A stretch of DNA of 64,000 nt, taken from the NCBI GenBank assembly GCA_963556145.1, contig OY744462.1, positions 1,302,001 through 1,366,000 of the forward strand, in the 5' to 3' direction. The notes under the pieces are model-generated. The model was not told the DNA's origin. It made no database searches and saw nothing but the letters and a program-made list of their open reading frames with translations. The translations under genes and the position numbers were made by a program. Below, in pieces: positions 38,303 through 63,680 of this stretch (position 1 is its first letter; the number at the start of each line of letters is the position of its first letter). This DNA is from Hygrocybe punicea (Eukaryota; Basidiomycota; Agaricomycetes; Agaricales; Hygrophoraceae).

Positions 38303-38505
38303 TAACATTGGGAGAGCCGATGGGCTAAAGATCCAATCCCAGTGGATGGGCCGAGATGGGCCGAGATAAAATCCAGACCTATTGTATTGGATGGGCCGAG
38401 ATGAGCCGAGATATTTCTGTCCCTTGGTATTGAATGGGCCCATAAAGTTAGAAATAAGGATTTCCCACTAGAATTGAATGGGCCGAGATGGGGTTAGATA
38501 TTTAT
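38303..38505 (+). repeat. Left terminal inverted repeat of the giant element
   Basis: Begins TAACATTGGGAGAGCC and aligns with the reverse complement of 63,475-63,680 with few mismatches, through the AATGGGCCCATAAAGTTAGA block to the first minisatellite unit. Confidence 0.85.
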
Positions 38506-40085
38506 TTCCCACTGGCATTGGATGGGCCGAGATGGGGTGGGTTATTTATGTCCCATTGGCATTGGATGGGCTGAGATGGGGTGGGATATTTATTCCCCAC
38601 TGGCACTGGATGGACCCACATTGGGTGGGATATTTATTCCACACTGGCACTGGATGGGCCGAGGTGAGGTAGGATATTTATTCCCCAATGGCAGTGGATG
38701 GGCCGAGATGGGGTAGGATATTTATTCCCCACTGGCACTGGATGGGCCCACATTGGGTGGGATATTTATTCCACACTGGCACTGGATGGGCCGAGATGGG
38801 GTAGGACATTTATTCCCAATGGCAGTGGATGGGCCGAGATGGGGTAGGATATTTATTCCCAATGGCAGTGGATGGGCTGAGATGGGGTAGGATATTTATT
38901 CCCCACTGGCACTGGATGGACCCACATTGGGTGGGATATTTATTCCACACTGGCACTGGATGGGCCGAGGTGAGGTAGGATATTCATTCCCCAATGGCAG
39001 TGGATGGGCCGAGATGGGGTAGGATATTTATTCCCCACTGGCACTGGATGGGCCCACATTGGGTGGGATATTTATTCCACACTGGTACTGCATGGGCCGA
39101 GATAGGGTGGGATCTTTATTCCCCATGGCAGTGGATGGGCCGAGATGGGGTAGGATATTTATTCCCAATGGCAGTGGATGGGCCGAGATGGGGTAGGATA
39201 TTTATTCCCCACTGGCACTGGATGGACCCACATTGGGTGGGATATTTATTCCACACTGGCACTGGATGGGCCGAGATGGGGTAGGATATTTATTCCCAAT
39301 GGCAGTGGATGGGCCGAGATGGGGTAGGATATTTATTCCCCACTGGCACTGGATGGACCCACATTGGGTGGGATATTTATTCCACACTGGCACTGGATGG
39401 GCCGAGATGGGGTAGGATATTTATTCCCAATGGCAGTGGATGGGCCGAGATGGGGTAGGATATTTATTCCCCACTGGCACTGGATGGACCCACATTGGGT
39501 GGGATATTTATTCCCCACTGGCAGTGGATGGGCCCACATTGGGTGGGATATTTATTCCACACTGGCACTGGATGGGCCGAGATGGGGTAGGATATTTATT
39601 CCCAATGGCAGTGGATGGGCCGAGATGGGGTAGGATATTTATTCCCCACTGGCACTGGATGGGCCGAGATGGGGTGGGATATTTATTCCCCACTGGCAGT
39701 GGATGGGCCCACATTGGGTGGGATATTTATTCCACACTGGCACTGGATGGGCCGAGGTGAGGTAGGATATTTATTCCCCAATGGCAGTGGATGGGCCGAG
39801 ATGGGGTAGGACATTTATTCCCCACTGGCACTGGATGGGCCCACATTGGGTGGGATATTTATTCCACACTGGCACTGGATGGGCCGAGGTGAGGTAGGAT
39901 ATTTATTCCCCAATGGCAGTGGATGGGCCGAGATGGGGTAGGATATTTATTCCCCACTGGCAGTGGATGGGCCGAGGTGGGGTAAGATATTTATTCCCCA
40001 CTGGCACTGGATGGGCCGAGATGGGGTGGGATATTTATTCCACACTGGCACTGGCTTCGGTGGGATATTTATTCCCCACTAGCAG
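38478..40085 (+). repeat. Sub-terminal minisatellite array, left (~44-bp unit)
   Basis: About 36-37 tandem units of a ~44-bp consensus built from GGATGGGCCGAGATGGGGT and AGGATATTTATTCCCCACTG. Variants alternate GCCGAGATGGGG with CCCACATTGGG, giving a higher-order repeat of about 130 bp around 39,130-39,560. Units lack stop codons in several frames, so chance ORFs run across them. Confidence 0.9.
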
Positions 40086-40521
40086 TGGATGGGCCGACAT
40101 CAGGGGGACCAACATTTCCCACCAAACGTGGGGATGCGATATATCTGTCCCCTGGCAGAGAGGGAGATTTCTTTTCCACTGCCATTGGATGGGCCAAGAT
40201 TAAGGTAATATTTACTCTACACTGGCATCCACATCCAGAGGATAACGAAATCTCTTTCCTGACATTCTGTAGATATACGCTGCAGATATCAGGACATATT
40301 CTCGCCTCCCTGAACTTTAATAACCACATTTTTTACCAGTCATTCCACCTCTTACTGGACCTCACTTTTCCGTATTTGTATTGAAACATTATGCATTTCA
40401 ATGTAGCAAATGATACACATCACATCATGCAGACAGGACAAGGAAACAATGACAAAATTAACACATTGACTCTGGAGCATTGCAGATATGAAGACCAAGC
40501 TTGCAGCCAGACCAGAGAATA
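40086..40521. other. Array edge and gene-free spacer
   Basis: Degenerate last repeat units to about 40,215, then unique sequence without a supported gene. Confidence 0.4.
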
Positions 40522-41225
40522 TCACTTCCTTAACCTCTCACTGGTCCTCACATGTCCAGTCTTAGGTTTTTTGGGTTTGTCCTTTCTTTTTGATGATGCT
40601 CCCCCAGCACCTCCGCCATGGTGCGGTTTGCCCTTGCCCTTGCCCTTGTCCCCACTCGGTGGTCCAGGTGGATCCTCAACCTCATGCTCTTCCTCTTTCT
40701 CTTCCAAGAATGTCCTCAGCCTATCTGCTCTCTCCAACAACTTGTGAGTGTGTTCCGCGGTGTACGAAGATCCCCACACATATTCGGGAATCCCCCTGGT
40801 AGAGTCGAAGTCGCCTTCGGTGAAGTGAGTGGCCGCAAATTCTCGTAAGGCCAGGCCAATGACCAATAGAATAACTGCAATGTCAGCCAGATATTGCAAC
40901 GTCTCCATCCATACCATGATCTCTTCTAGAGCATTGCCATCATGGAACTCAGGCGGCAGAAATTGGCCGGGGTAACTCCATGACATCCAGGCATGTTCAG
41001 GATTATTGACGTCCCATTCCTGACCCAGGTTATTCATTTCAACACGTATTCTTGAAATGTATTACTCACATAATGGTCATAGCAAAACTTGACCAAACTC
41101 AGGTATTGCCTACTGTCGTTCAAGGTTTGTAAATATGCAAATCTTGCCTCTTTGTCTGGGCCGACTGCGGCTGGACTAAACAACCAGATAAACAAATGGA
41201 AATGCACATGGGGCAGATAATGCAT
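40522..41225 (-). CDS. Hypothetical cargo protein with one hydrophobic helix
   Basis: Exon 1 41,225-41,070 (MHYLPHVHFHLFIWLFSP...), a 50-nt intron, exon 2 41,019-40,522 in the same frame, about 217 residues. The N-terminus is hydrophobic. A probable transmembrane or buried helix (IAVILLVIGLALREF) lies mid-protein. The C-terminus is a charged tail with GKGKGKPHHGGGAGG and KRKDKPKKPK. The lysine-rich tail could be a nuclear localisation signal. No known domain. It starts six bases after the stop of the neighbouring gene (41,231) on the same strand, a very tight spacing. Confidence 0.55.
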
Positions 41226-41230
41226 ATCAC

Positions 41231-42758
41231 TTATGATCGATTTGGCAATGTGCTTGCGGCCCCGTACTCAATCCGTGTTGAAGGTCCAGGCTCGTTGTCC
41301 GAGATGTCGTCATCATCAGAAATATCCACATATCTCCTTTTCTTGGCGTTTTTGTTCTTCAACAGATTCTCTGTATCTGAGGCCCTCGCAGACTTGAATT
41401 TGAGGGCCACCAACCCGCCTGCCTGCCGGTTCTCCCAGTGGTCAAAGACCAGCTTCAGCTGGTCCTTCTTCATCTTTGTCGGCTCCATTATCTGCTGTCC
41501 ATTGGGGAGATACTCAGCATCTATAAATTCCCCCAGGGAATCTCTTATCCTCAACCATGGGACTGTCGCATTCTGGTTGTTCGTATATTGGCCTGCAACA
41601 TATGGTGAGTCATGTTTTATTCCAGACATTCTGCTCAACTTACGGTAGGACATTGTCACAAATGCCCTAAAGACATCCTTCTTCTTCGGCAGTGACATCC
41701 CCTTTGTGTCAGGGAGGATGGGTGCACCAAACTCGTCAACTTGCAAGACAAATGGCATGCTCTTATCGTGTTCCTTCCTGGGCAGGCTGGGACCCTTTCC
41801 CTTGTCGACATCACTTTCTTCTCCATCACTCTGCTCATCTAATGTATGATCAGAGAAGTGAATGTTGATGATACCTTGAACATACCATATTCGGTAAACA
41901 CCCACTCATTCCATAATTTCATCACCTCGTCCTGGAAAGTTTTGCTTTTTGAAAAAATTTCCCCTTGAATGTTGTGGGTTTCAAATCTACCGATAATGTT
42001 GGGTGAGTTCAAATAATTTGCAGCAGGTGAAATATTACTTCGTTGTTTGAGCAACGCCTTTCCGATCCTTCCAGCCAACCAAGACAAGCACCTTCGCCCC
42101 CATCTGCACATCCAATTCCTTTACAAACTTGCTAACCACCTTGCTCATCGAATTTTCCGCATTGCTACCCCAGAGGCTTCAGTAGAAGACAACGATGTGA
42201 GAAAAGGTTTTCACTTACCTACTCCGCACTTCATCTGTTAGTTTCCCACTATTCCACTCCGCAGCGAGACCCTCAAACTCTGCCCTTCTTTCGGGGGTCA
42301 ACTTCTCCATGACCCAGGTGCAAGCATCTTTATATACAGCGATGAACTCCTTGCTTCCGGGCTTTCCACCTGAAAGCTCCTGGATTCTCTCTTTTATTTC
42401 CTCCTTCATCTTCTCCACCACAACAGCGCGTAAGTCCCATGTTCTGACAAATTTCGCTCGAGTCTTCTTTTTGCCAGCATCCTCATGTCCATCATCCTTG
42501 TGATTCTACAACCATATGATGATTTTCTACATAGAACGTGATGTCAGCCTATATGTGAGTATAGCTTATAAGGCGAAGTTCAAGTACTTTGGCCAAACCC
42601 TCAATGTGACCATCGTTAACAACTTCCCTGCTCTTCTTCTTTATTTCCGAATGAATTCTTTTAATGATCACTGTCTTGCTGTCCCTGTCAGGGGCATTTT
42701 GGTAATCCTGCTTATGGTTTTTCAGGATTTCAAGATATTCGGGAATGACCCAACTCAT
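41231..42758 (-). CDS. Hypothetical cargo protein, multi-exon
   Basis: Start MSWVIPEYLEILKNHKQ at 42,758. Exons follow with short GT-AG introns: NHKDDGHEDAGKKKTRAKFVRTW...CTWVMEKLTPERRAEFEGL (about 42,505-42,225), NAENSMSKVVSKFVKELDVQMG...VFTEYGMFK (about 42,180-41,880), and DEQSDGEESDVDKGKG...LPRKEHDKSMPFVLQVDEFG to 41,231. The last exon includes VPWLRIRDSLGEFIDAEYLPNG and an acidic, Lys-rich tail (KKRRYVDISDDDD). I recognise the layout as a recurrent unnamed family in Agaricomycete genomes, often near repeats. Function is unknown. No premature stops. A degenerate CG-rich palindrome-like stretch lies upstream near 42,890-42,930. Confidence 0.6.
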
Positions 42759-43208
42759 AGTGGAGGGGATGATAGTGGGGATAATTTTGACGTGATGCTA
42801 AGGGGGGTGAGCAAGGGGGAAACAATTTTCAACCATCCAAACACGATCATGTGATGCAGGGATTGGATCACGGTCACATGACCTGTGTGACCTGTCATGG
42901 CCGATTCACCTGCTGCGACATGTCACATCACATGTATTGCACAGGATTCAACCTTTAAGTTTTGCACAAACATGGGATACATTTTGACAACTACTAAAAA
43001 TACAGTAATGCAATGTATGTAACGAGACATAAAATACAAAATTTGCAGAATCGAAAGCTGACAACAATGGGGACAATGACAACATTTGCAGATGGAAACT
43101 TATAGTGGAAAATCTAATGATAAATAATGAGAGGCAGACGTGACTGGTAAATGATTGATTAAGCATGAGCCGGTATTCTGCTAACGAACAGCAGAACACC
43201 TACTTGGT
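42759..43208. other. Intergenic spacer in the giant element
   Basis: No gene seen. Near 42,870-42,935 it holds repeated GTCACATGACCTGTGTGACC and GACATGTCACATCACATG phrases similar to those upstream of the KDZ gene. Confidence 0.4.
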
Positions 43209-46200
43209 TCAGGATGCAGTGGCAACATCCATATCGCCATCAGGGCTGTAAATTGGCTCCCTAGCAAAATCCCTCTTTTCCGTGGATGTTAAAGCTAATG
43301 CCTTTGCCGCATCAGAATTCCTACACTCAATCTTGAACATTGGACCGCTCCAATTGAAACTCCAAGTGTCGCTTGTTATCGGAGCTTCATCATCCAGCAG
43401 GGTTTCCATCAAGGGCATCAATTTGGGCCACTGAGTCTCGAAATGCGCCAGGATCTTCCTTTCTAGTTTGAGGGAGGTGCAACCGGTTGTCAAGGGCACG
43501 TTCACCAATTGTGCCTGCCTCTCACGTTTGTAAAATATGAGGCAGAGGCAAAACTGAAGCAGAGCACATTTGAAGATGTAGGAAGGATGCACCCATATCC
43601 CACCCAAAATCGTCACATATTCTCCTGCAAACCAGGTGCAGAATCGGCGGTATCGCAATCGGGCGAAGGTCTCTTCCTCCTCTTCCAAGTCATCCATCTC
43701 ACCACTGTAATGGTTTCGATTGATCACCTCCGCCATCTCCAGAAGATTGCCCACAATCACCACATCCAAGAGGCCAGCAGGGGTCGACACATCAGGAATG
43801 TGATGTTCGCGATCTACACCTGTTGAGGATCATGATTTAGGTAGAGGGATGAGAACATGAACAGCAACGACATACCGACAGCTGAAGCCTCATTGACACA
43901 CAAATGTTCATGCCACATACCCATCATTCTGCTCAGAATGGTCCGGGTGGTATTATGTTGAGTATTTGTGATGGAGTAGGACATGACGAAGGTGTGGATG
44001 ATTCCAAAACAGGTGTCCTTGATCGACGATGTGGCATAGAAGTGATTTCCATATACGATGGAGTCCTGCAGGGTGACTACATAATGGACTGTGTTCGGCC
44101 TTTGGAAACTGGCATCATTTGTTAGATAAGTCTGTGATGGAATGAATAACGCTCACAAGACATCATTTGGCGTCAACAGCACCCCCTCTTTCTCCCAGAT
44201 GCCTTTGGATGGACTGAGGGGACCCCAACCCTTTCCAAACGCATGACGAGTCGTCATGTCTCCATTGCTATTCCAGGGTGGTGTCTCTCTGTTGCGGCGC
44301 ATGACAACCCAATACTTGCTGCCTGTCATTACCCTTACAACCGTGGCAAAACCATCATCATCAGCATGTGGCCAAGAAGTTGCACCCCGCAATGCCGCAG
44401 TCCCCCACGAGAGTTCATCCGCGAATGTTTTGCCTGGAATATAACCTGGTTGTCCCCGGGTTTCCGACATGGCCTGCTCATGGGATGCCAGCGAGCTGGA
44501 GGAGAGCATCTTTGTCAAATGAAAACTGAGGATAGATAATTTCGCATCATACCGGTACATGGGCGGTGGATGAACCGTGAGGTGACCCATGGGAAAGTCC
44601 AGCATGTTCCAGATGTGTCTTCGTCCTTCTAACAGAGATGCATTATACAAATCTTGCAGAGTCCCGACATGCAGCATCTTTCCATGACTTTTCCGGGTGC
44701 GAAAGGAACCAACTTTGTCATTTGGTGAGTAACAGCAAGGATCAGTAAAAGGACAAGACAAACCCTGCACATTACGCTCATGTTTGAGACTCCCAAGTCT
44801 GGAGAGACCTTCCAGGTCAAACTGGTGACGTTCCTGCTGTGGGACTCCATGGACCAGGATATGTCTTTGTTCAAAGATATCCTGGATCGTCGAGGTATCC
44901 ATTTGGAGGTACTGATCATATGCCACTACAAAAATACTCGAACCATCCGGATCAAATTCTGGGTTGCTAGCGGATGGTAGGTGATGAAGAGGTCTTCCAT
45001 CTTCATATAAGGCCTCCACCTCCTCTTGGATGGTTCGTAAACACCAATATTCACATTCATCCTGTGTTGTCCATGTAAATAAATCAAACCAACAACTAGA
45101 AATAGGACTAACCGAGCCCGCATTACTTTGAAATGTGAAATGAGCTGCTTCTGCATTTCGGTCGGCTCCAAAAACCCTGAGAGGCACATGATCCTCAGAC
45201 ATCTGTTGCTCTGGTTAGTTGATATCTCGGGCATTAGAGACGAACTGACTTCAGGAAGTTCGAGGTTTTTGACCGGAGTGCCATTGAATGACTAATTTCC
45301 ATCATTAACTCATGTGCATTGAAAGATTGGTCACAAAGTTATACTCACTTCACCGGGCAGTTCTGATGAAATCATCTGACTTCTGTCCATAAGCTTCCTT
45401 TTTTTGCGGCTGTTCCATTTCGAAGCTGGTGCATGCCGTTTCTTGCTTGCAGTGAAGTAGGTCTGGTACCCAGCAGGAGGTCCGTTTTGTGTCGTCTTCC
45501 CTTTGAGAGCATTGGTTTGCGAGCGCGTTACCGGGCGCAATTGGGTTCCTAGCTCAGTTTCGCTTTCTTCTGATTCCTCCTCCTCCTCCTCCTCTTTGCC
45601 TTCCCCCTCAGGTCGTGGTCTGGTACCTTCACCCTGTTCGCCCTCCACCGCTGGCGGTGGTCCACCCCCCTCCGCCACTGGTCCACCCCCTTCCACCACT
45701 GGCAGCGGTCCACCGCCCTCCACCACTGGCGGTGGTCTGTTGCTCTCCACCGCTGGCGGTGGGCCATCGCTCTGTACCGCTGCTTGTGGTCCATCGCCCT
45801 CCACAGCTGGCGGTTGTTCAATGCTCTCCACTGCCAGTGGTGGCCCATTGCCCTCCACAGCCAGTGGTGGTCCATCACCCTCCACCGCCAGTGGTGGTCC
45901 ATCGCCCTCCACTGCCAGTGGTCCATCGCCCTCCACCTCCAGCGGTGGTCCATCCCCCTCCACAGCTGGCGGTGGTCCACCCCCCTCCGCTGCTGGTGGC
46001 GGTCTATCGCCCTCCACCGCTGGTGGTGGTCCATCGCCCTCCTCCTCCACCGGTGATCCATCGCCCTCCACTGCTGGTTGTGGTCCATCACCCTCCAAAG
46101 CCGGCGGGGGTTCATCACACTCTCCAGGTTGGCCCTCCCCCCCTGGCTGTGGTTCGTCCCCCCGCCCCTGCTGATCCTGCCCTTGCGCCGGTTGTGGCTC

Positions 46201-46944
46201 CCCCTCACTCTGCTGGGCCTCCCCTTGAGGCTGTAGTGGCTCATTGTTCATTTGCTCTTCCTCCCCAACCGGTTGCAGCTGCTCCCTGTCCTGTTCGTGA
46301 GCTTCCCCTTCATCGTGTTGCAGCTGTTCCCCCCTCCGCTGGTCGTCCCCTTGAGGCTGTGGCGGCTCACTGCTCATTTGCTCTTCCTCTCCCGGTGGGT
46401 GCAAAAGGTCCTCCACCTCCTCCTCCTCCATCCACCACGGCCGCTGCCCCGCAGAGTTGTTCCTCTGCCAAGGCTCGTCTTGGTAGTCAGACCAGTTTGT
46501 CTGCCCTGGCCGCCAGACGGGGTCATCCTCCTCCTCCTCCTCCTCCTCCTCCTCCTCCTCCTCCTCCTGGCGCTGCTTCTTCTCCCCCTGCTGCTGCTCT
46601 GCACCCATGTCGATATCCACGTCGACATCCATGTCGACATCGACATCCACTGCCGTTGGTTCCTCCATGTCCATGTCGGCGTCTTCCTTGCTCCCCTGCT
46701 CCTTCTCTTTCCCCTTGGGCTCCGGCTCGGCTGGCTGCTCTTGCTTTTTCTCATGTTGCCACCTGGTGCCGTTGTCCAATTCTGACTCACTGTCATCATC
46801 AATGATGATGACAGGTTCCTCAGATCTGCTCGTGGATGCTGTGTTCTGATTTGCTTGGTGATGTTTAGGGACTGAGATAACGGGCCCTGTGTTGGAGTTA
46901 AATCCTGGGTCAAGGAATGGGAAGGCATGATGGAATACATACAT
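43209..46944 (-). CDS. JmjC-domain protein with long disordered N-terminus
   Basis: Model: exons 46,944-45,349, 45,291-45,250, 45,202-44,157, 44,108-43,876 and 43,819-43,209, all joining in frame to 1,175 residues. Residues 1-530 are disordered: a Glu run, alternating Asp/Val, and about 20 tandem ~10-residue repeats (EGDGPPPAV-like). Next comes a Lys/Arg-rich block. The JmjC core follows: SWPHADDDGFATVVRVMTG (iron ligands His and Asp near residues 825 and 827) and RPNTVHYVVTLQDSIVYGNH (third ligand His near 903). JmjC enzymes are Fe(II)/2-oxoglutarate dioxygenases, many of them histone demethylases. The substrate is unknown here. I recognise this as a repeated mushroom JmjC family. No lesions are seen. 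Exon 3 may hide one or two further in-frame introns. Confidence 0.78.
45640..46140 (-). repeat. Coding minisatellite in the JmjC gene
   Basis: Tandem ~24-30 bp units (GTCCATCGCCCTCCACCGCT-type on the plus strand) encode the EGDGPPPAV-like repeats. Units are diverged, and the lengths are multiples of three so the frame is kept. Confidence 0.8.
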
Positions 46945-47129
46945 TTAGAATACCAATCCAAGTGCATGTTCTCATCCTCGTAACGGAGGGAGAGCTGCTC
47001 AAATTCTCATAGGAACAATTGGAGTTCCGTCTTTGCATTGGAACCAGTCGACATTCGGAGCAACATTTGCCAAAGACAGCGTTCCGTTTGCATCAGGCAG
47101 GAGGGCTTATGATTACCAAGCAATAGTTT

Positions 47130-48426
47130 CATCTTTATGTCATGAGGTTAGACAATTGAGAAAACCGTAAAAGGGTGCTCACTGTGATCAAATGATCCCT
47201 GCGAATTTGCTCGTTGTTGAACTGTCGGGGAAGGAGAGCAATGATGGGAGAGATGGAGACTGCAAGATGGAACAGATTGACCATCCTCAAGAGAATGGCC
47301 TTTGCAGAACTCATGTTTTCGAAAAGCGTAATCAAATCTGAACCCAAAGGCATTCTCAGGGATGTTGCCCGGCTTCAATATGGCTCCAGTCAGCGTCAAC
47401 ATCATATTACGTATCTCAATGATACTTACCTTCGTAAAGTTAAGATAAATGTCTGTGGGTTCTCCGGAAGCCGATCCTTGCCCTATATTGGATTTATAAG
47501 CCCAACATGGATGCCAAGAAGGGGCAAGATAACTTACCAAGCCAAACCAGCACAGAGCGAAAGACATGAGTTCCAAGTTGACCAGCAATTGGGTATACTT
47601 GGACTCATGAATATGTTGTCCAGCCCGCAAAAGACTCATGACCCCTTGTTTCAGCAGCGACTGCTGATGACTGAGCTGCTCAGGTTCAGCATTCGCGAAC
47701 AACCTGGCCTTCGCCAAACTTGCCCCAAAGCCATCACCAAGCCGGGCGTTTCTCTCTCGGGTCCGCAAATCCAGGATGGGTTGAGTCCAATCATCGAGTT
47801 TGGTCAAGAGCTATTAGGGGCAACTCAGCGCTGATCTCTTTCATTGAAATACGAACATTCATGGGCATACCTGTGTTAACTTTACTGGCAAATCATGGGG
47901 CTTTGCTCCTCGAAATATGACTGGTGTCGTTCTTGTTGCTGGCACTCCCATTGCATCCGCAAGCTGGTCCAGAAGAGAATATCGGTTCACAATTTCTGCG
48001 GCGGCGCTGATGTACACTGCTGGCGAAGATGACCATCTTCTGGGATTGCCAACAGTCGCTAGAGCACCATGAGGTCCACATGCTGCATTCAGATTGAAGA
48101 ATTCCTTCAAGAATCCTGTAACCCTGTCGCCATACACTCGATGTGGTGAAAAAGCGTCAAGGCTTTGCGCCATGTTCTGGTTCATGTTCAACTTTGGGTT
48201 GATTGCTCATCGAACAGAATCATAAACTCACCAAGAGCAGCTGGCCTTGGGAAATGGGGCAGCTGGAACCTAATAGAGCCAAGCGAAGCTGATCCTTCAT
48301 AGCGCCTCGAACAAGGAGAGTGCCATTGGTCCATGGAAAATCACGCAGGAGAGCAGTATTGTGTCGAAAAGATATGGCCAACGCTGAGGAAGAGGCTTCA
48401 GTTGCTTGGCTGCCACTGCTTGACAT
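47130..48426 (-). CDS. Hypothetical cargo protein, multi-exon
   Basis: Start MSSSGSQATEASSSALAIS at 48,426, followed by FPWTNGTLLVRGAMKDQLRLAL. A ~60-nt intron leads to NMAQSLDAFSPHRVYGDRVTG...RGAKPHDLPVKLTQ, and another to LTKLDDWTQPILDLRTRERN...QGVMSLLRAGQHIHESKYTQL and LELMSFALCWFG. Later exons (ILKPGNIPENAFGFRFDYAF) reach about 47,130, where the end is not settled. The protein is mostly helical with no recognised domain. No premature stop lies in the exons chosen. It lies in the same orientation as the JmjC gene. Confidence 0.5.
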
Positions 48427-49339: not shown

Positions 49340-51145
49340 TGGAGTAGGACTAGAGGTCCTACTCACTACGATGGCATGGTCATGGCATAGTCAATCTCTC
49401 CTTGTCTGACTAATCCTACTACAAACATCTATCTACGACTAGATCACGTGACTATCCCAATCCTCCTACTACATGTCCCCTCCTCCAATATGGCGACGTC
49501 CCCGTCGCCTCATCGCTGAGAAACAAAGCAGGAACAGAGAGAGAACTAACCAAAATCCAACATCTCCAAACTCCAAACCAAAAGAACTCCTACTCCGTCA
49601 AGGTCTTATGAAATGCTGCCTACACTAAGGGATACCTCACTCCAGTGGATGCCGCCGCAGGGATACCTCACCGTAAGTGGCTGCCGCTGTCCTGTAGACC
49701 AAATCGCCTATGTTCAAAGGTTGGTAACGCTCGTGGAATAAAGAAGTGGGGTGTGGTATGGTGTGGTAGTGTCGATGTTTGATGGAACAAGTGCTGATGT
49801 CGAGGGAAAGTGGCCGCGGGGGTCAGGGTGGTCTCTGGGATCAAAAACGAGGTTTTATCAAGTATACGCGAGGGGGCAGTAACACTGTAGCAAGGGAACA
49901 TGCAGGGTTGGTGCTTGAGGGCTCGAAAACGGCAAGTATGGCTTGACGGTGGCATAAATAGCTTGTCGGATCGTCGAGCGTGGATGCTGGGGGGTATTTG
50001 TGGGGTTGCGAGGGGTCAGGAACGAAGCTGGGGGCCCTAACAAACATACGCGAGGGGGGTTGGAACCAGGGGAAGCGGGATCGCGAGGTGGTAACGCAAG
50101 ACGGCGTTGGGGGTCCAAACATGGTGGGGACGGCTCGTTTGGAGCGTTGATGGGACGCAGGGTACTCTGGGGTGGCAAACGGGTGGGCCGCTGGGCTTGA
50201 CAAGATGGTCTGGGCCAGTTGCATTGGCAGAACGGGGCTGCGCGGTGATGACATGGCATGTGGCCGGGGTGTCAGAAATGACGGCAGGGGCTCGTTTGGC
50301 GCAATGGAGGGGAACGGGGGGTCCTGGCCGGCGGAACGAGTGTGCGGGGAGTCGAATGGGTCCGTGTAGGGGTGGGGGTGACGAGAAACGGGGGTCTAAG
50401 AGTGGTGACGTGGCAGATCCGTGGGGTGACCAAAAGGTGCGGAGCGGTTTGTTTGAGACGACGAGGCGTGACGGGGGGTTCTGGCAGATGAGCCGAGGGT
50501 GCGGGGAGTCGAATACATGCATTTTGGGTTCGGGGTGCATGGAAACAACAGGGTCCGTACAGCGCTGATGCGATTTCCGTCGGGCTGTCCAAAACTCGCT
50601 GTAGCGGGGTATGTGGGATCCTGATGGGGAACGCAGGGCTCCGGAACGTCGAACGAAGTTGCGGGGGGTCGTCTGGACATGGCTGGGTCTGGGGATAGTG
50701 AAAATTCGGGGGGTTGAAAAAAGGTGACAGGCCTGCCATTTGGGTGCTGAGAAGGGTCGCGGGCGCGTTTTTGGGTCAACTCGGGGCGACGCGGGGCCCT
50801 ATTGGGCTGAACATGAGCGCTGGGGGGTAACTTGAGTGTCGTACGGCCGTGAATGAAGAGAGAATGCGCGGTTGTGCAGCAGTGGGTGGTGAGGCCGCGT
50901 GAAAAAAAATGTAGTCGCGAGAAAGCTAGCAAAAGGCTCAAAGAAGGCTCAAAAAAGCCAGAGAAAGAAGAGAAAGCAATGGTGAGACGAATCACACTCT
51001 CATCACCACGATGGAGTAGGACTAGAGGTCCTACTCACTACGATGGCATGGTCATGGCATAGTCAATCTCTCCTTGTCTGACTAATCCTACTACAAACAT
51101 CTATCTATGACTAGATCACGTGACTATCCCAATCCTCCTACTACA
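49340..51145. mobile_element. TRIM-like element with 134-bp terminal direct repeats
   Basis: Direct repeats 49,340-49,473 and 51,012-51,145 differ at about one position (CTACGAC vs CTATGAC), start TGGAGTAGG and end CTACTACA (TG...CA), and are flanked by CCGT (49,336-49,339 and 51,146-51,149). The 1.54-kb interior is GC-rich, contains repeated GGGGTGACGAGAAACGGGGG-like phrases and lacks gag or pol. A clear primer-binding site or polypurine tract was not recognised, so LTR origin is likely but not proven. Confidence 0.7.
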
Positions 51146-53950: not shown

Positions 53951-53958
53951 CTTCACAT
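53951..53958. repeat. 8-bp target site duplication of short hAT element, left
   Basis: CTTCACAT here and at 55,253-55,260. Confidence 0.85.
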
Positions 53959-55252
53959 TAGTGTTGGGGAAGTTCGGTCTCAGACCGACCCAAACCCGGT
54001 TTAGACCGAACCGAAACCACCGGTTTCGGTTTCGGTTTGGGAAATTTCGGCTGAGACCGAACCGTTCAGTCTCCGGTTTGGAGATTTGGCCGCGGGCCGA
54101 AACGGTTTCAAACTCAGTTTGAACCGCAAACCGACAGTCCAAAGTTGGCTACATGGCTGACTTCGAAAGTCACCCAAAGTCACCAACCCCACCAACAACA
54201 CCCCCGATATACGCCAAACGAAGACGATGGAGCACCCGAGGTCGACAAAACGGGCGGCGGGGTACTCCCTGCCGCCCGCGTATGTTTTTTATTTTTATTT
54301 ATTCGAACTTAACTAACGCATTTACAAATTACAGGTTGATGCACCACGGCCACCACCACCACCACCACCACCACCACGACAACGGCAACGACAACGGCGA
54401 CGGTTACAACCACCGTCAACGCCACGCCGGACGCGCCCACAGCAACGCCCACGGCCCACCCCCAGTGCCAGGCCAAACGCGTTCAAAACGCGTGCCAAAC
54501 GTACGTGAATGGGGTGGAGTCAACAAGGTGGAAGAGCAGCAGGGGTGGTGCATCCACCCCGCTCCTTCGTGGTATGTACCTTTATTCATTTTTTCACTGA
54601 TTTATTCGTCCATTATAGAACGCGGCACCGTACCACCACCACCACGCAACACTAACACCACCGAGGAAGGCCAACGCGGGGTCAACCCGGCCGTCGTCGT
54701 GTGTACAACGCGTATGACGCGTCCGGACACCCTCGCGAAGAGGCTCCTATGCCACCACCACCACGCGTCCGCCGAAAACAACCAAAGCGGCCCAGCCGTC
54801 GTCGCGTGCACAACGCGTATGACGCGTGGGGCACCACCACCACCACCACCACCACCACCACCATCACGCGTCCACCGAAAACGGCCAAGGCGGTCAACCC
54901 ACATCGCATGTACAACGCGTGTGACGCGTCGGGACACCCATGGAGAAGCCCGCGTGCGGCTCAATGCCGGCGCAGGGTGTGCCAGCACCCCAGCACCCCA
55001 ATCTCACCTCGCAAACAGGCTGGCCACGTCAATTGACGTGCGCAGCACTGTTGCGAGGTCAGAATGGTGCAGGGGCACTGAGCACTAGCGGTCCGCGGTT
55101 CAGACCGCGTTCAGACCGAAACCGAACCGATGCAAACCGTTTGCATCGGTTTCGGTCTGGTTTGGGGACTTTGGGTGGAAAACCGGACCATTCGGTTTCC
55201 GGTTTGGGCAAAAAGGCCCCAAACCGGACCAAACCGAACTTCCCCAACACTA
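53959..55252. mobile_element. Non-autonomous hAT element (1,294 bp)
   Basis: TIRs TAGTGTTGGGGAAGTTCGGT and the inverse, with an 8-bp CTTCACAT duplication. The sub-terminal regions are dense in GGTTTCGGTTT/AACCGAAACC motifs on both sides. The interior is CAC/CCA microsatellite and GTGTACAACGCGTATGACGC-type tandem repeats. A 311-residue frame through it is low complexity (His and Pro runs) and not convincing as a gene. It sits 94 bp upstream of the TET/JBP start codon. Confidence 0.85.
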
Positions 55253-55345
55253 CTTCACATGTGATCTCGTGCTGATCGCGTTGTTTGTTTCTATTGACGT
55301 GTATCGTTGTGTGACGTGTATCGTTGTATAGGACTTTTTTACCAG

Positions 55346-56721
55346 ATGGTCTCCTCAAAACCTATGGGCTCAAAGCACGAAAACTCACAAAAATCGCGGC
55401 GGCGCATTGGCAAGCGAGGTTCACCAAGTCTGTGCAAAAGGTATTTATTAAATTTATCCTTTGGCATCCAATCTGAATGTAATGCATGCAGATTGCGACA
55501 ACGTTTTCTTTTGGTCACCCGCGCCCAGTTGGGTGCAGGTGAACAATTAGATGACCTAAGAGCTGCCCGGATCGTCACAGAAGCTCTGCTCAATCCGAGT
55601 AAGTCATGATGATTCCAATGGCCCAATCTAATTGTTTCTCCATTGTAGTTTATATTCAGTGGGACCTCGAGGATTACGCCACCCGCGTCAAAAAAGGCCT
55701 GGGTACCCCGGCCTCAATCGCCCAATTACAGCGCAAGTTCGCGAATCCCCAACTCGGCAGGGTGAATAGACCCGCAACAGTGGTGGACATGTGTGGACGA
55801 ATAATAATCTGGTATCTTCCAGGGTTGATATCAGCCCAGCAAGCTGTAAGTCGTGTCATGATCTAGGAGGTTTAATTCAATAGTAGAGACAAATTAGGAT
55901 GTTATGCTGAATGGCAGTGAAAGCATACAAGTCATCGGCTCAAAAAAGATTCATCGTAAACAAACATGCGGGAAGGTCAATTGGCGAGTTGACCCAAAAC
56001 ATTTTCGTTTTGATTCTGTGGATCAGAATCTACTGCCGGGAAGTGATGAGTATTCGGCAGGGTGGTTCGCACAGGCTCATACTGTGAGTTCCGAAATCCG
56101 CCAACATTCCGGTTGCTGGGCTCATTCACATTTTAGAGACCAAGTGACCCTTTGAAGCCTTCTGCGAACCATCTTAAGCGGGGTACTGGAGAATGGATGT
56201 CTTCAATAGCTGACGTAGAATCGTTCATCAATCGGGTCTTCTTTATGGTTCATCCATCACTGCAACAAATCGGCAGCAAAGCTTTGGACAAGCTTAGGTC
56301 GGCCAACCTGACGGCTAAAGTTGCAGGATCCTGGACATCCCATTTCACTGGGATCGCGGTTATCATCAACCGGAAGACATTGGCACATCGTGATGGGAAT
56401 GGTATGCCACCTTGGTATGACTTCCTCCTGGGTATCGGAGACTATCATGATTGCACTCTTGATATGCCCGACCTTGGACTGCAGCTCGATTACGGGCCCG
56501 GAACTGGCGTCTTCCTATGTGGCAACAGCATCAGACACGAAGTCACGGACTGGAGTGGTGGGGATCGAGTTTGCTATGCTCATTTCCTCAGGAAGAAAGT
56601 CTTGGAGCGTCTAAATGTAGAATTGTCAGGGTGGTCTGAGCAGAAAGAGTTTTGTACCATCATTCCAGAGGTGAAATGTCGTGAATTGGGTATTAAAAAC
56701 TCGGCACATGTAGCAGCGTAA
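55346..56721 (+). CDS. TET/JBP-family 2-oxoglutarate/Fe(II) dioxygenase
   Basis: Exons 55,346-55,440, 55,492-55,598, 55,649-55,845, 55,898-56,083 and 56,137-56,721 join in frame to 389 residues. The catalytic double-stranded beta-helix is in the last exon: TSHFTGIAVIINRKTLAHRD gives the HxD iron ligands (His279, Asp281), GNSIRHEVTDW the distal His (about 329), and GGDRVCYAHF the Arg (about 339) expected to bind 2-oxoglutarate. This arrangement matches fungal TET/JBP proteins, which oxidise 5-methylcytosine or thymine bases in DNA. The basic N-terminus (KSRRRIGKRG) suits nuclear import. No CXXC finger is seen. The gene is complete, undamaged, and 572 bp upstream of the KDZ transposase on the same strand. 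TET/JBP expansions linked to KDZ transposons have been described in mushrooms, so the pairing is expected. Substrate is inferred. Confidence 0.87.
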
Positions 56722-57293
56722 ACATCATTCATAAAATATGTACCCTTGTCCTGAACTTACGAAATATTACTTTTGTAACATTCCATCAGCCTATCAGCAG
56801 GTTATAGTTCAGATTGTCCACCTTGAGTTGCAATAACAGGAATGAGAGCATCTCAATTGCATATCTAGGCACTGAAAGGGAGGTCTGATCTTGGTTGTCT
56901 CAAGTTCACGCTTGCATGCTGCAAAAGCACTGCGCCTGGTATATGCCAGGGGGTCAAAGGTGGATAATATAACATCGTTCCAAAGGTTGGTGCACACCGG
57001 TGCAGGTGGGGACTGGTATTCTGGTTGACCATACTGGCGGGGTAACACTGATCTGCGCAAGTATGAGAAAACAAGGTGGTATGAGAAAACAAGGTGGTTG
57101 TCAGTATTGTCAGGCATGGCTGCGAACCATAAGACCTGCAGAAGAGTTGATGGGAGCACGTGACATGTGTTTCAGAGCCATGATGTGACATGTCACGCCG
57201 ACTCGTCGGACGTGACACATCACACATCACGTGTCACATCAACATCAACCATTTGTAAACATCAACCAATTTAACATCAACCACCTCCCAACA
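56722..57293. other. Spacer between TET/JBP and KDZ genes
   Basis: No gene. It holds a direct ACATCACACATCACGTGTCACATCAAC-type run and palindrome site 3 upstream of the KDZ start, probably the KDZ promoter region. Confidence 0.5.
57193..57215. promoter_or_regulatory. CG-rich palindrome, site 3, upstream of the KDZ gene
   Basis: TCACGCCGACTCGTCGGACG followed by TGA, 23 bp, ending 78 bp before the KDZ ATG. Confidence 0.5.
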
Positions 57294-60200
57294 ATGCCCA
57301 AGTTGTCCAAAGAGAAACATGGGAAGAAGAGGACAGCTCAAGAAGTCATCTTTGTTGAGAAAAAGATGAAAAATCGCACAAAATGGGTATCTAAACCAGT
57401 CGCAGGCGAGCTTCCCAAAAGTCCACAGAAATCCAGTCCAAAAAAGTCACCTTTGGATTCAAACCGTCAGCAAAGCATGTCCCCAGATGTGCCTCCTGAC
57501 TCAGGTACACCGCAACCTCCAAAGCGCAAGACGGCGAAAGGCAATGTCAGCTATTCCTTTACCTGCTTTGTAGTCACTCTGAATTATTGGCAGACCCAAA
57601 ATTGTTACCTCAGGGAGTGGATTCCACTTCGCAACGAATATCTGAGGGAGATGTTGAGCATGGAAGCTCCTCCTATTCCTGCCACCTGTCATATCTACAA
57701 GAAGCAAGGTGGCCCCATTCGCTGCTTGAGCTGTCTCGGTCGTCCATTATTCTGTAAAGAATGTTGTCGAATCTCCCACCAGGGGACTCCATTCCACAAA
57801 CTCGAATCATGGAATGGAAGCTGCTTCACCCCATCCTCATTACATGACATAGGATTCTGCTTGCATCTTGGGCACGGTGGTGATCCATGTCCCTCCAATT
57901 CCATTCAAGATGTCTGGGAGGATGTTGGGGAAGGCTCATCTTCGATGTCACAGATCGAGAATGATCAGCTGCTAGTTGACTTGAACCAGGAAGATGATGA
58001 TAACAACTCGGATGACAGTGTGCTGGTTATGGTTGATATTTCCGGAATCCACCGGCACCGTGTTCGCTGGTGTCATTGTCCGTCAAAAGACGAGCCACAA
58101 TGGCAATTGTTCAAGACCGGTCTCTTTCCGGCAACATTCAAACATCCTCGCTCGGCATTTACCTTTCAAGTCCTGGATTACTTTCATGTCGATCAGGTTG
58201 AATGTAAGACTTCTGCCAACAATTTCTACTCAAAACTGCGCCGGCTTACAAATAATGCCTTTCCTGACACCGTATCGGTGAGTCTCCATCTTAAAGGCTG
58301 TATTTATGGATGGTGATGGTGGAATGGACCTGTCAAATAGGACCGCTATAGAGAGCTCATGAGGGTCTCACGGCAATGGCGTGACATCAAAGTTCGGAAA
58401 TGGTTTGGTTATGGCCACGACACCGACAAAGAACCAGGCAACGGCGACCTCGCTTTCTTCTGCCCAGCATGCCCACAGCCGGGCATCAACCTCCCTGATA
58501 ACTGGAAGGAATTGCCTAATCCGTTAGTAAAATGGACCTGCCAATGTTTATTGAAAGTAACATTTTCACAGGTGGTTGTATCGGAGAAGCCTCGTGGTGG
58601 ATGGAAATTTTACTGCGGAACACATGCACATGAGGAATCCTGGCGATGATGTGGAGCTTACGAATGGAACTGGGTATTTTGTGCAAAGAGCTTCCTATGA
58701 AGAGCACATCAAGGAAGCCGTGGAGGTCAAACAGGTGCAAAATTCATTTGTTGTGGTCTTAGGTTCCAAACTCAAACTTGCATTAGAAATCATCATGTTC
58801 CAAGCACAGAGCAGTCACCCAGAGCAATGCAAACAATAAGAACCTGGAATCCACAGGGGTTGGTGCCTGTGCCTGTGCGAGGCATGGATGCTTCGTTCCG
58901 CACAGCATGGTGGATTTTCAGAAGGGTGAAAGGTAACGAGGTCAGGTCAGAATGTCCTTGACGTGACCTGAAATCCTCGTCAGGCAAATGAACATAGACT
59001 ACTCAATATGTGAAGCCCTCAAGTACAACACCGAAGGCATGTGGCAAGCTCTCTTGTTCTATGATGTGATATGTGAGTGGGCGGTGAATTTTGGTAGACG
59101 TGTGAAGCAGAGTAGTTTTTTGGATGCACCTACCATGGAATTGATCTTTGGTATCGGAAAATTCCATTTAAATGCTCACAAGGACGACTGCTTTCCAAAA
59201 TTCTCACCCAACTTTATTCGTGGTGCTGGGCAGCTGGATGGAGAACAGATGGAAACTCTGTGGGCGATCATCGAGTTGATCTCACGCATCACAAAGTACA
59301 TGAGCAAGGCTCACCGGCGGGAGATTTTGGATGACATGATGAGACATTCAAACTGGAAAAAGTTGGTTGGAATGAGTAAGCAACAACCATCACCCTTCTC
59401 CTGGTTTGATACTCATCCTCTGAACAGTAAAAATGTTGATAGCAAAACATAAAACAGCCATCAGGGTCAAACGAGAAAGCAAGGAGGCATATCAAGATTT
59501 GTCAAGTTCATTGGATCCCAAATTGGTGAAAAAGTGGAGTGAAAGCCAAACTTTCACTGAATCACAGCGTGGGGATGCACTGAAAATTTATCAAGTTGCT
59601 TTGAAGCAAGGTCAGTGATATTTCCTCCCCATAGTAGTGATGAATGAACAGTTCGTAGCACCAACTATGGCGGAAATACGTCTGAAACTGGGGAGGAACG
59701 CCAAGGGGGAAGCAGGAGATTCCAATGCAGTGGCCTGGTTAGTGTCCGGGCTAAATATTGAACAAGCTCAGTATGTTCCTCACATTATATCATCACTTTC
59801 CTGTTCACAATTCTGAATTTCAGGGACAATCTCACTCATGATATGCGAAAGCTTAAAAAAGCCGTTTCCATAGCGGAACAAAACAAGATTATGGATCGAC
59901 GAAAACGGTTACAAAGCAGGATTGATGCCTTCCAGAGGAAGACAACCTTTCTACTCAATGGGCATGATGTGGAGGAAGAGGATTGGGAGGAAAAGGATAA
60001 AACATCCCCGGATGTTGGCATGTCCGATGATTCACAAGATTCCGCATCAGATGAGGAAGGAACAGATTATGAAGAAGATTGTGATCCTATCCTAGCAGAA
60101 AACGCTCGTATCAGTTTGCCTTCTAAAATAGGAAAGGAGGTATGTAAAAGGGTGGGATGGATTGAAATGGCTTCACAAGAAATGGAGCTTCGAAAAGGAC

Positions 60201-60873
60201 AAGCTAACGAGTCCCTGGAGAAAATACGTTTTGCTCTGGGACATAAAGCATTGCTTTATCGAACAAGGATTAGGAAGGCCAAAGGACAAAAGGCCAAGAC
60301 ACGGACTTGGGGAGCCATTCGTCATGCAGATGTGGCTTTGCGTGAATGTGTGAGGTCTTATGGTCGAGCTCGTAGGGCATTGGTAAACCTGGGTGCGGAC
60401 AACAAAACATTGGCACATTACCAAGAAATTCGTAGAGAGGATTTGAAGCTTAGTGGAGATGTTGTGGAAGAAAACAGATTTGGGCAAAAGAGTGATGCAT
60501 TGGCATGGTTTTGGAGAATGGGTGACCAGAACAAGGAACAGGAGGACAACTGGATGTCAGAATGTGAGTTATCAAATGAGATCTACCACAATACACCATT
60601 GAAGTTGTAGTAGTTTACAGAGTGAACTGGTTGAGAGCGAAGGCTAGAGCAGAGAGAGCAGGGGAAGAGGAAACAATGGTGTTGGCAGAGATGAAGTTTA
60701 CCATAAGATGGTATAGGTTTCAACAACGACTGTGGCAGGAAAGAGCGAGACGAGCACTGCAGTCTTCAAGGCAGGGAAGGGGACATCACGCATATGCTGA
60801 GAAGCAAGTTGTAATGTGGAAAAGATTTGCAGAAGCGGCGAAGAAGGGTTTTCCAGTGGATGTTCTTGAATAG
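57294..60873 (+). CDS. KDZ-family transposase (apparently intact)
   Basis: About ten exons from ATG 57,294 (MPKLSKEKHGKKRTAQE). Resolved exons: 57,294-57,545, 57,594-58,277, 58,341-58,522, 58,572-58,734, 58,805-58,932, 58,984-59,375, then from 59,428. One junction near 59,600-59,655 is ambiguous. The N-terminal cysteine cluster (CLSCLGRPLFCKECCRISHQ) is typical of KDZ proteins. The core has SLVVDGNFTAEHM, the HRAVTQ and ARHGCFVPHSMVDFQKGE blocks, FYDVICEWAVNF, GIGKFHLNAHKDDC and GQLDGEQMETLWA, carrying the expected acidic and metal-binding residues. The C-terminal half is helical (FYRVNWLRAKARAERAGEEE) with an acidic stretch near 59,980-60,090. No stop or frameshift appears inside exons. Codon use and introns match the other cargo genes. 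It presumably mobilises the 25-kb element. Confidence 0.88.
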
Positions 60874-61149
60874 TAACAGGCAAATTTCTTTCGGAGTCAA
60901 ATATTGGTTTTATTTAATGCTCATTGCATATGAACATCATGTCCAATGAGGCACATCCGATATTGTTGGGCAATGAATATCCAACACATGGTAGACGGGC
61001 TAACGTGATTGGTGCCCCCATGTCAGCCAATCCAATGGAAATGGGAACCTAATATCCTGCCGATGTTGTCGTAGTGTGTCATAAATAGCCCGCTTGTCCG
61101 AGATTGGTTGGATAAGAAGATGGGTGGGATCAAATACAGGTGGGGAATA
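60874..61149. other. Spacer between KDZ gene and right array
   Basis: Short unique sequence; no feature seen apart from the edge of the minisatellite. Confidence 0.45.
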
Positions 61150-63515
61150 AATATCACACCCAGCTGGGCCCATCCAATGCCAGTGGGTAATAAATATCCA
61201 AGCCCCTCTCGGCCCATCCAATGCCAGTGGGGAATAAATATCCCAGCCCATCTCGGCCCATCCAATGCCAGTGGGAAATAAATATCCCACCCATCTCGGC
61301 CCATCCAATGCAATTGGGGAATAAATATCCCACCCCATCTCGGCCCATCCAATGCCAGTGGGGAACAAATATCTCAGCCCATCCAATGCCAGTGGGAAAC
61401 AAATATCCCACCCCATCTCGGCCCATCCAATGCAATTGGGGAATAAATATCCCACCCCATCTCGGCCCATTCAATGCCAGTGGGAAACAAATATCCCACC
61501 CCATCTCGGCCCATCCAATGCCAGTGGGAAACAAATATCCCACCCCATCTCGGCCCATCCAATGCAATTGGGGAACAAATAACCCACCCCATCTCGGCCC
61601 ATCCAATGCCAGTGGGAAATAAATATCCCACCCATCTCGGCCCATCCAATGCCAGTGGGGAACAAATATCTCGGCCCATCCAATGCCAGTGGGAAACAAA
61701 TATCCCACCCCATCTCGGCCCATCCAATGCCAGTGGGAAACAAATATCTGAACCCATCTCGGCCCATCCAATGCAATTGGGAATACATATCCCACCCCAT
61801 CTCGGCCCATCCAATGCCAGTGGGGAGTAAATATCCAACCCCATCTCGGCCCATCCAATGCCAGTGGGGAACAAATATCTGAACCCATCTCGGCCCATCC
61901 AATGCAATTGGGGAATAAATATCCCACCCCATCTCGGCCCATTCAATGCCAGTGGGAAACAAATATCCCACCCCATCTCGGCCCATCCAATGCCAGTGGG
62001 AAACAAATATCCCACCCCATCTCGGCCCATCCAATGCAATTGGGGAATAAATATCCCACCCCATCTCGGCCCATTCAATGCCAGTGGGAAACAAATATCC
62101 CACCCCATCTCGGCCCATCCAATGCCAGTGGGGAACAAATATCTGAACCCATCTCGGCCCATCCAATGCAATTGGGGAATAAATATCCCACCCCATCTCG
62201 GCCCATTCAATGCCAGTGGGAAACAAATATCCCACCCCATCTCGGCCCATCCAATGCCAGTGGGAAACAAATATCCCACCCCATCTCGGCCCATCCAATG
62301 CAATTGGGGAATAAATAACCCACCCCATCTCGGCCCATCCAATGCCAGTGGGAAATAAATATCCCACCCATCTCGGCCCATCCAATGCCAGTGGGGAACA
62401 AATATCCCACCCCATCTCGGCCCATCCAATGCAATTGGGGAATAAATATCCCACCCCATCTCGGCCCATTCAATGCCAGTGGGAAACAAATATCCCACCC
62501 CATCTCGGCCCATCCAATGCCAGTGGGAAACAAATATCCCACCCCATCTCGGCCCATCCAATGCAATTGGGGAATAAATATCCCACCCCATCTCGGCCCA
62601 TCCAATGCCAGTGGGGAACAAATATCTCGGCCCATCCAATGCCAGTGGGAAATAAATATCTGAACCCATCTCGGCCCATCCAATGCAATTGGGGAATAAA
62701 TATCCCACCCCATCTCGGCCCATCCAATGCCAGTGGCGAACAAATATCTGAACCCATCTCGGCCCATCCAATGCCAGTGGGAAACAAATATCCCACCCCA
62801 TCTCGGCCCATCCAATGCAATTGGGGAATAAATATCCCACCCCATCTCGGCCCATCCAATGCAATTGGGGAATAAATATCCCACCCCGTCTCGGCCCATC
62901 CAATGCAATTGGGGAATAAATAACCCACCCCATCTCGGCCCATCCAATGCCAGTGGGGAACAAATATCTGAACCCATCTCGGCCCATCCAATGCAATTGG
63001 GGAATAAATATCCCACCCCATCTCGGCCCATCCAATGCCAGTGGGGAACAAATATCTCGGCCCATCCAATGCCAGTGGGAAATAAATATCTGAACCCATC
63101 TCGGCCCATCCAATGCAATTGGGGAATAAATATCCCACCCCATCTCGGCCCATCCAATGCCAGTGGCGAACAAATATCTGAACCCATCTCGGCCCATCCA
63201 ATGCCAGTGGGAAACAAATATCCCACCCCATCTCGGCCCATCCAATGCAATTGGGGAATAAATATCCCACCCCATCTCGGCCCATCCAATGCAATTGGGG
63301 AATAAATATCCCACCCCGTCTCGGCCCATCCAATGCAATTGGGGAATAAATAACCCACCCCATCTCGGCCCATCCAATGCCAGTGGGGAACAAATATCTG
63401 AACCCATCTCGGCCCATCCAATGCAATTGGGGAATAAATATCCCACCCCATCTCGGCCCATCCAATGCCAGTGGGAAATACATATCTGACCCCATCTCGG
63501 CCCATTCAATTCTAG
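61150..63515 (-). repeat. Sub-terminal minisatellite array, right (~44-bp unit)
   Basis: About 54 units of the same 44-bp consensus as the left array but in opposite orientation (CATCTCGGCCCATCCAATGC on the plus strand). Two main variants differ at GCCAGTGGGAAACAAAT vs GCAATTGGGGAATAAAT. A ~430-bp higher-order duplication is clear: the block at 62,621 recurs at 63,051. Long stop-free frames, up to 711 codons on the minus strand, are by-products of the repeat. Confidence 0.92.
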
Positions 63516-63680
63516 TGGGCAATCTTTATTTCTAACTTTATGGGCCCATTCAATACCAAGGGACAGAAATATCTCGGCTCATCTCGGCCCATCCAAACCT
63601 ATAGGTCTGGATAATATCTCGGCCCATCTCGGCCCATCCACTGGGATTGGGGGTTTAGCTCATGGGCTCCCCCAATGTTA
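63475..63680 (-). repeat. Right terminal inverted repeat of the giant element
   Basis: Inverse of 38,303-38,505. It ends ...CCCCCAATGTTA at 63,680, directly followed by CAG. Confidence 0.85.

Follow-up and report, generated by a model that had tools for sequence, protein, structure and literature searches.

Structure of the locus and limits of the element

The stretch of the Hygrocybe punicea genome analysed here (64 kb, hereafter the window; G000:C2:1302001-1366000 of a 92-Mb genome in 42 contigs) contains a complete transposon of the KDZ superfamily, which occupies positions 38277-63707 of the plus strand (25,431 bp) and carries, in addition to its transposase, a TET/JBP dioxygenase gene, a gene for a JmjC-like protein and a further gene, here called gene X. 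Its limits are defined by target-site duplications (TSDs), by twelve copies with two ends and by empty sites, which show that it is one unit with precise insertion, moving as a block. The element is a recently mobile cut-and-paste DNA transposon, Kyakuja-like within the KDZ superfamily on the strength of its 7-bp TSD.

An earlier note on this DNA had bounded the unit by one pair of terminal inverted repeats (TIRs) of about 200 bp. The inverted pair is real (38299-38815 and 63168-63684, 89% complementary), but the repeats run on into subterminal arrays and the true ends are 38277 and 63707. In an alignment of six complete copies, the sequence shared between copies extends past the ends given earlier (by 26 bp at the left end, by 27 bp at the right) and terminates at a 7-bp direct repeat that is different in each copy; in the window this TSD is GCTCACA, at 38270-38276 and 63708-63714 (neither assigned a strand). 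The starts of the TIRs are ruled out as element ends because the TSDs lie 26-27 bp farther outward, and a 3-bp CAG duplication found there is ruled out as a TSD, since it is constant across the six copies that display both ends and is therefore part of the element. The added terminal segments are 38277-38302 on the plus strand (GAGCCCTTGCAGC...) and 63681-63707 on the minus strand; the left one is followed by the inner portion of the left long inverted repeat at 38303-38459 (plus strand). Read inward, the left end is GAGCCCTTGCAGC.TATCTTTCC and the right end CACACCTTGCATCGG, with CACACC at one terminus and GAGCCC at the other.

Arrays of 44-bp units are found inside both ends. The left array (38460-40054, plus strand) holds about 36 units and the right array (61140-63523, minus strand), inverted relative to the left, about 55; the lengths of both vary among copies. 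CpG is kept in most GGGCCGAG-type units of the six copies counted, and the arrays of the window have observed-to-expected CpG ratios of 0.27 and 0.40 and show some CpG decay. The arrays are putative binding sites for the transposase or for another protein of the element.

Copies, empty sites and the target repeat

With up to two mismatches allowed, the terminal motif occurs at 172 places in the genome and its reversed-pattern control at none, and the matches are thus not due to chance; that the TIR pair might be unique to this locus, a possibility raised in the earlier note, is excluded by these multi-copy ends. Among the matches listed, which cover part of the 172 places, twelve of the fifteen CACACC ends belong to two-ended copies. 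The unpaired ends are the CACACC ends at C7:6889019, C6:527042 and C41:4549839 and the left end of a thirteenth copy at C1:2529167, for which only that end is present. All twelve two-ended copies of this family (family 1), the window among them, are flanked by a perfect 7-bp TSD, and matches to the KDZ domain, a TET exon and a JmjC-like exon lie between the ends of every one; six of them span 20.3-27.0 kb and six 19.2-46.3 kb.

A lack of empty sites, which the note had named as evidence against the unit, is likewise excluded, as such sites exist in this genome for the window element and for a further copy, copy D. When the flanks of the window element are joined and the TSD is written once, the resulting sequence matches all 40 scored places (of 113 candidates) across positions 1-560 at 99-100% identity; these empty sites are supplied by other members of a high-copy repeat, because the element inserted into one of its members. 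For copy D, 38 places span the junction at 81-90%, the other three of the 41 rows being its own flanks or a short adjoining piece. The target repeat itself (37997-38276 and 63715-63994) has at least 40 copies at 99-100% identity over the joined 560 bp and represents a very young family.

Genome-wide, 186 KDZ matches were obtained (150 of 429 candidates scored), and ends were compared for family 1 and for the second family described below. The note had also considered that the ends of other KDZ copies might exclude the TET and JmjC-like genes, with these genes found independently elsewhere in stable synteny. No such case was encountered within family 1, although 9 of its 22 TET loci and 10 of its 22 JmjC-like loci lack a partner at a distance of up to 20 kb; two TET and two JmjC-like loci of this partnerless group sit in TSD-flanked units of larger span.

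Gene content

Genes were modelled with a home-made predictor, for which ten open reading frames of the window served as the training set, and some joins were placed by eye. The KDZ transposase (57294-60873, plus strand) has nine modelled exons and is open over 1,047 residues; it matches the full PF18758 profile (E-value 6.5e-46) and contains a CxC zinc cluster (PF18803, CxC2, E-value 7.1e-25). The TET/JBP gene is open over modelled exons 2-6 (55332-56721, plus strand; exons 55332-55440, 55529-55598, 55649-55845, 55898-56083 and 56137-56721) and ends 573 bp upstream of the KDZ start, in agreement with the earlier account of two undamaged genes about 0.6 kb apart. Its predicted 5' end in the window runs into a nested insertion and is not trusted. 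The window exon has a Pfam match (E-value 2.4e-13), and the spliced model from another copy, copy B, matches the CcTet protein (E-value 1.1e-16). When copy B is aligned with CcTet (7vpn; HRDGNGMPPWYD versus HRDTSGPIEGMD), the HRD motif, the equivalents of Gly331 and Asp337 and the distal His are kept, and the window exon has the same HRD/Gly/Asp stretch. In the main text of PMC12730594, Gly331 and Asp337 of CcTet are named as important; with these two residues and the HxD...H triad, the protein is classed by sequence as AG-type TET/JBP.

The JmjC-like gene (43209-48426, minus strand) is modelled with 11 exons, GT..AG introns and 1,556 codons, and its catalytic core lies in 43876-45202; the family-1 exon at 44157-45202 may contain two more in-frame introns, as judged by comparison with family 2. 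The undamaged gene of 1,175 residues proposed earlier is not supported, as the present model is longer and is interrupted by a premature TGA at codon 381, a position that encodes Arg in copy B; its core is open. The eight exons of gene X (40552-42797, minus strand) were lifted from the copy B model, and on this model the second exon of the window copy is interrupted by a stop at codon 77. It gave no Pfam match and has a family-2 relative at 28% identity (E-value 3e-32). KDZ elements reportedly encode a divergent HMG protein (Iyer et al. 2014), and gene X might be this protein.

The claim of at least four further spliced genes was not upheld: besides the JmjC-like gene, gene X is the one that is also found in family 2, and two regions are nested insertions. 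Genes modelled between 48.5 and 55.2 kb were rejected as cargo on account of their weak models and these two insertions. With regard to intactness, the KDZ gene is open in three of six complete copies and TET exons 2-6 in five of six; when one right-truncated copy is added to the six, gene X is open in four of seven, and the N-terminal part, the core and all parts of the JmjC-like gene in four, four and one of seven, respectively. In the window copy, KDZ and TET are open, and the JmjC-like gene and gene X each have a stop.

Identity of the JmjC-like protein

The JmjC label given earlier is retained at the level of motifs, although every Pfam JmjC match lies below its cut-off. In family 1, the HxD motif, the Lys and the distal His are spaced by 17 and 78 residues, which would fit JmjC proteins. 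In a six-row alignment (A2), the His and the distal His are present in all six rows and the Asp and Lys in five; the rows represent about five lineages, since one of them (L051) is close to family 2. The layout HxD...H is shared with the JmjC histone demethylase KDM2A/JHDM1A, but the protein of the element falls below every family cut-off. The piece from the window gave no Pfam family with E-values up to 1, family 2 gave none with E-values up to 5, and later short pieces gave one unrelated family, below cut-off. The core of a third family comes closest, with JmjC_2 (PF08007) at an E-value of 0.0013 (18.7 bits versus a cut-off of 22) and further sub-threshold matches to AraC_binding and Cupin_2.

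A profile search recovered ten public relatives, among which are metagenome fragments of up to 83% identity. A long single query found no homologue among 7,996 scored candidates. Scans of viral and prokaryote contigs with A2 gave 33 and 45 pattern stretches, respectively, none of which was confirmed, and NCBIfam gave no match for three of the relatives. The relative from Termitomyces sp. T159_Od127 (C0993_008964; P0007; 30% identity, E-value 1.8e-21) keeps the HxD and the distal His. All five of its PDB matches with E-values up to 10 are to KDM2A/JHDM1A, aligned from the HxD to the distal His (best E-value 0.054, a weak match), and the sole Pfam match of its catalytic piece is a weak one to PF02373 (E-value 0.09, 13.7 bits versus a cut-off of 24). 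On this sequence basis, the protein is probably a cupin-type 2-oxoglutarate oxygenase and quite likely of JmjC type; that it is a histone demethylase appears to be an even call.

As regards the JmjC genes of the host, nine of the twelve above-cut-off PF02373 matches in the genome are open frames of 135-155 residues, and three of the PF02373 frames (L036-L038) have the pattern LHLDM..A...GEA.FIPAGCAHQV, representing an expanded host JmjC family.

A second family and genome-wide linkage

A second family was found at two loci (C1:2.20-2.22 Mb and C34:3.74-3.76 Mb), each with KDZ, TET and JmjC-like genes and gene X, to which a gene for a Ulp1/C48 protease is added; Pfam E-values in the C1 copy are 1e-48 for KDZ and 2e-20 for the protease. 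The C34 copy extends from 3742458 to 3762307, with the TSD CCACTGT and termini of the family-1 kind, and for the C1 copy the right end was found and the left was not. Identity to family 1 is 36-55% for KDZ, 39% for TET and 28% for X, and for the JmjC-like protein 28-39% in the N-terminal part and 42-48% in the core. Both families have the order KDZ, [Ulp1], TET, JmjC-like, X, with TET and X reversed in orientation; Ulp1 was not found in family 1, for which copy B was searched. The family-2 copy has 44-bp arrays too, of about 18 and 11.5 units; their sequence is different, and GGCCGA is common to the units of both families. The SUMO-protease-type Ulp1/C48 gene was seen in the family-2 elements at L029-L032 and L039-L040.

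Across the genome, a TET locus lies within 20 kb of 63 of the 92 JmjC-like loci, compared with about 5% by chance (12 of 22 loci in family 1 and 51 of 70 in others). For this count the listed rows were merged by eye, from 115 to 92 JmjC-like and from 119 to 116 TET loci, and family was assigned by percent identity alone. The claim of a single mobile unit with both oxygenase-type genes is thus borne out by twelve of twelve TSD-flanked copies, by the empty sites and by the recurrence of this gene set in another, diverged family.

CpG decay and selection

Base changes were counted in the core shared among element copies, with seven copies in 40.1-49.3 kb and six in 55.3-61.1 kb. CpG transitions amount to 253 of 6,852 opportunities (3.7%), as against 49 of 40,396 at other cytosines (0.12%), an excess of about 30-fold; changes at A/T sites number 63 of 51,770. 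The low rate at non-CpG cytosines points to a recent spread. The CpG rate is 1.0-6.5% in all 500-bp bins and differs little with the 5' neighbour (ACG 4.9%, CCG 3.4%, GCG 3.4%, TCG 3.3%). We infer that the pattern reflects deamination of 5-methylcytosine (5mC) at CpG, as would be expected of germ-line CpG methylation. Repeat-induced point mutation at CpA is excluded by the location of the decay at CpG, and TCG-type hypermutation by the TCG value, which lies within the 3.3-4.9% observed for all 5' neighbours. As a probable target of methylation, the element would offer a substrate to its own TET protein.

With regard to selection, 19 comparisons were made for TET; the two deepest of them give a ratio of nonsynonymous to synonymous substitution rates (dN/dS) of 0.24-0.26, and the corresponding ratio of proportions (pN/pS), pooled over all pairs of 20 sequences, is 0.46. 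For the JmjC-like core, for which 12 comparisons were made from 11 loci (one entered twice), dN/dS is 0.15-0.30 in four of the five most-changed comparisons. On balance, the comparisons, including the higher values given below, favour past purifying selection on TET and on the JmjC-like core, more firmly for TET.

Other features of the window

Two nested insertions lie in the element without belonging to the unit, neither assigned a strand. That at 49340-51145 is absent from copies B, C, D, E, G and H; that at 53959-55252, located 5' of the TET coding exons and absent from B, D, E, G and H, has inverted ends TAGTGTTGGGGAAGTTCGG and an 8-bp TSD, CTTCACAT. Neither is present in the five other complete copies compared. 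Outside the element, a perfect inverted repeat of 3,671 nt (13409-17079 and 17892-21562, with an 812-nt spacer) is either a real palindrome or an assembly fold-back, and a second one of 416 nt (5883-6298 and 6318-6733, 97%, 19-nt spacer) resembles a foldback element. An Rfam scan of the 64-kb window gave no matches.

Relation to known elements

A link between KDZ transposons and TET genes was reportedly already drawn by Iyer et al. in 2014. TET-carrying Kyakuja transposons of Agaricomycetes with defined ends have since been published (Kojima 2025, PMC12730594), so that the earlier suggestion that no unit with defined ends and cargo had been described stands for the JmjC-like partner alone, which was not found in the open-licence literature, and not for TET-carrying KDZ elements. 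According to the main text of that article, these elements share with the one described here the KDZ transposase, an AG-type TET/JBP protein, the 7-bp TSD and a proposed anti-silencing role. The 7-bp TSD was found in all twelve two-ended family-1 elements and in one family-2 element. The two Laccaria families described there, Kyakuja-1/2_LB, have CA..TG termini and no TIRs, in contrast to CACACC/GAGCCC and long inverted repeats here, and the present element is filed as KDZ, Kyakuja-like only, because of this difference in its ends. Further differences from the elements of that text are the 44-bp arrays, the JmjC-like gene, gene X and the count of CpG decay between copies; no mention of JmjC, jumonji, HMG or Ulp1 occurs in the main text of PMC12730594. 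A JmjC-like gene in KDZ/TET transposons was not found in the open-licence literature, the scope of which leaves an earlier mention possible in Iyer et al. 2014 or in the supplements of Kojima 2025.

Cryptococcus KDZ1, as described in the available text of PMC12810828, likewise has a KDZ transposase with a CxC domain, long TIRs (241 bp) and mobility, but differs in its 8-bp TSD, its length of about 11 kb and in that no TET or JmjC domain is noted there. SET-carrying HarbingerS and MuDR, and the anti-silencing system of Vandal, as covered in the main text of PMC12730594, are also mobile and encode an epigenetic factor, which is a methyltransferase or a regulatory protein, unlike the pair of oxygenase-type genes found here. 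The same text proposes a TET-based anti-silencing role for other elements. In two mushrooms, oxidised 5mC is enriched in transposable elements, TIR elements included, according to the available part of PMC8889193.

A possible anti-silencing function and its alternatives

The reading preferred here, held at somewhat better than even confidence, is that of a KDZ transposon with a two-enzyme kit against silencing, acting on DNA and on chromatin. The transposase would act on the short imperfect terminal repeat and the inverted, CpG-containing 44-bp subterminal arrays, and the TET/JBP 5mC oxygenase, the JmjC-like oxygenase and gene X travel with it as one block. The host would methylate the CpGs of the element, the step for which the CpG decay provides evidence; the TET protein might then oxidise this 5mC and the JmjC-like protein remove a partner histone mark, and the element, opened for a time, would allow the transposase to be made or to bind. 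A fuller version is offered more tentatively, as somewhat doubtful: a KDZ lineage with a mobile dual kit, in which TET counters 5mC, the JmjC-like protein counters a linked histone mark and the sister family adds a SUMO protease, would use it transiently at the 44-bp CpG arrays to license transposition, while resting copies would be methylated and decaying.

Several observations weigh against the two-enzyme reading. CpG decay extends over the full length of the element and spares no part of it, so that any demethylation would be incomplete or transient; the earlier idea of an escape from silencing cannot be kept as a fact given this roughly 30-fold excess over other cytosines, and the TET protein does not appear to give full escape or to prevent germ-line methylation. 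None of the six complete copies has all four genes open in our models. Four TET comparisons give dN/dS above 1 (1.6-4.4, on 1-4 synonymous changes), the most-changed comparison of the JmjC-like core, involving a copy with two stops, gives 0.77, and those of its comparisons that are not among the five most changed give 0.14-0.85 on few changes, some of them 0.70-0.85. Furthermore, a further JmjC-like family (L050, C36:798501-800000) is without the catalytic Asp and Lys, and is possibly an inactive version of the protein, and the motif Lys is missing from the Termitomyces relative. No Pfam family is above cut-off for the JmjC-like protein, hhalign performed no better with six host JmjC domains (probabilities of 0.1-0.5%) than with three controls (0.1-0.3%), and no JmjC demethylase is among the matches listed for the PDB searches with profiles A1, A2, A5 and A6. 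A1 had no match; A2 had T4 lysozyme first (E-value 0.27), along with ribosomal chains, chains of other kinds and, at 1.6, a cupin-4 protein; and the best 60 of the 542 matches of A5 are T4 lysozyme or its fusions (best E-value 0.0012), taken as chance, with two alignments that lie for the most part upstream of the HxD and overlap it in part. The six matches of A6 are all cupins (E-values 0.5-2.5, a cupin-4 protein at 2.5).

This last result, together with the Pfam outcome and with the sub-threshold AraC_binding and Cupin_2 matches that accompany JmjC_2 in the third family, would suit a cupin or 2-oxoglutarate oxygenase with a non-histone target, which might process TET products or hydroxylate protein or RNA within a two-step modification system; the weak KDM2A and PF02373 matches of the Termitomyces relative speak against such a protein, and it is considered rather unlikely. 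It is about equally unlikely that the oxygenases act at the ends and not at promoters, where 5mC in the arrays would block or gate binding of the transposase and TET, with the JmjC-like protein, would license excision. Plant Spm/CACTA elements offer a likeness in their methylation-sensitive subterminal motifs, and the fact that both families bear arrays at each end, with GGCCGA and the 44-bp period in common, agrees with such a role, as does the CpG kept in most array units; the low CpG content and partial decay of the window arrays do not. Finally, the TET and JmjC-like genes might be passive hitch-hikers with no role for the transposon. Broken genes in many copies could be read in this way, and Cryptococcus KDZ1 is mobile with neither domain noted in the available text. 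This appears improbable in view of the set and order of KDZ, TET, JmjC-like and X, kept across two families at 28-55% identity despite changed orientations, of the deepest TET comparisons, with their dN/dS of about 0.25, and of the linkage of JmjC-like loci to TET.

With regard to the two-enzyme reading, should the JmjC-like gene prove true to its resemblance, the element would be, as far as the open-licence literature shows, the first transposon reported to combine a DNA-demethylase-type and a JmjC-like gene in one TSD-bounded unit, and it would do so in two diverged families. The element makes it testable whether transposon-borne TET genes protect the element that carries them; the CpG decay of its copies suggests that such protection is at best partial or restricted to a life stage. 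The oxygenase pair may help the element against silencing, though its copies carry the scars of DNA methylation.

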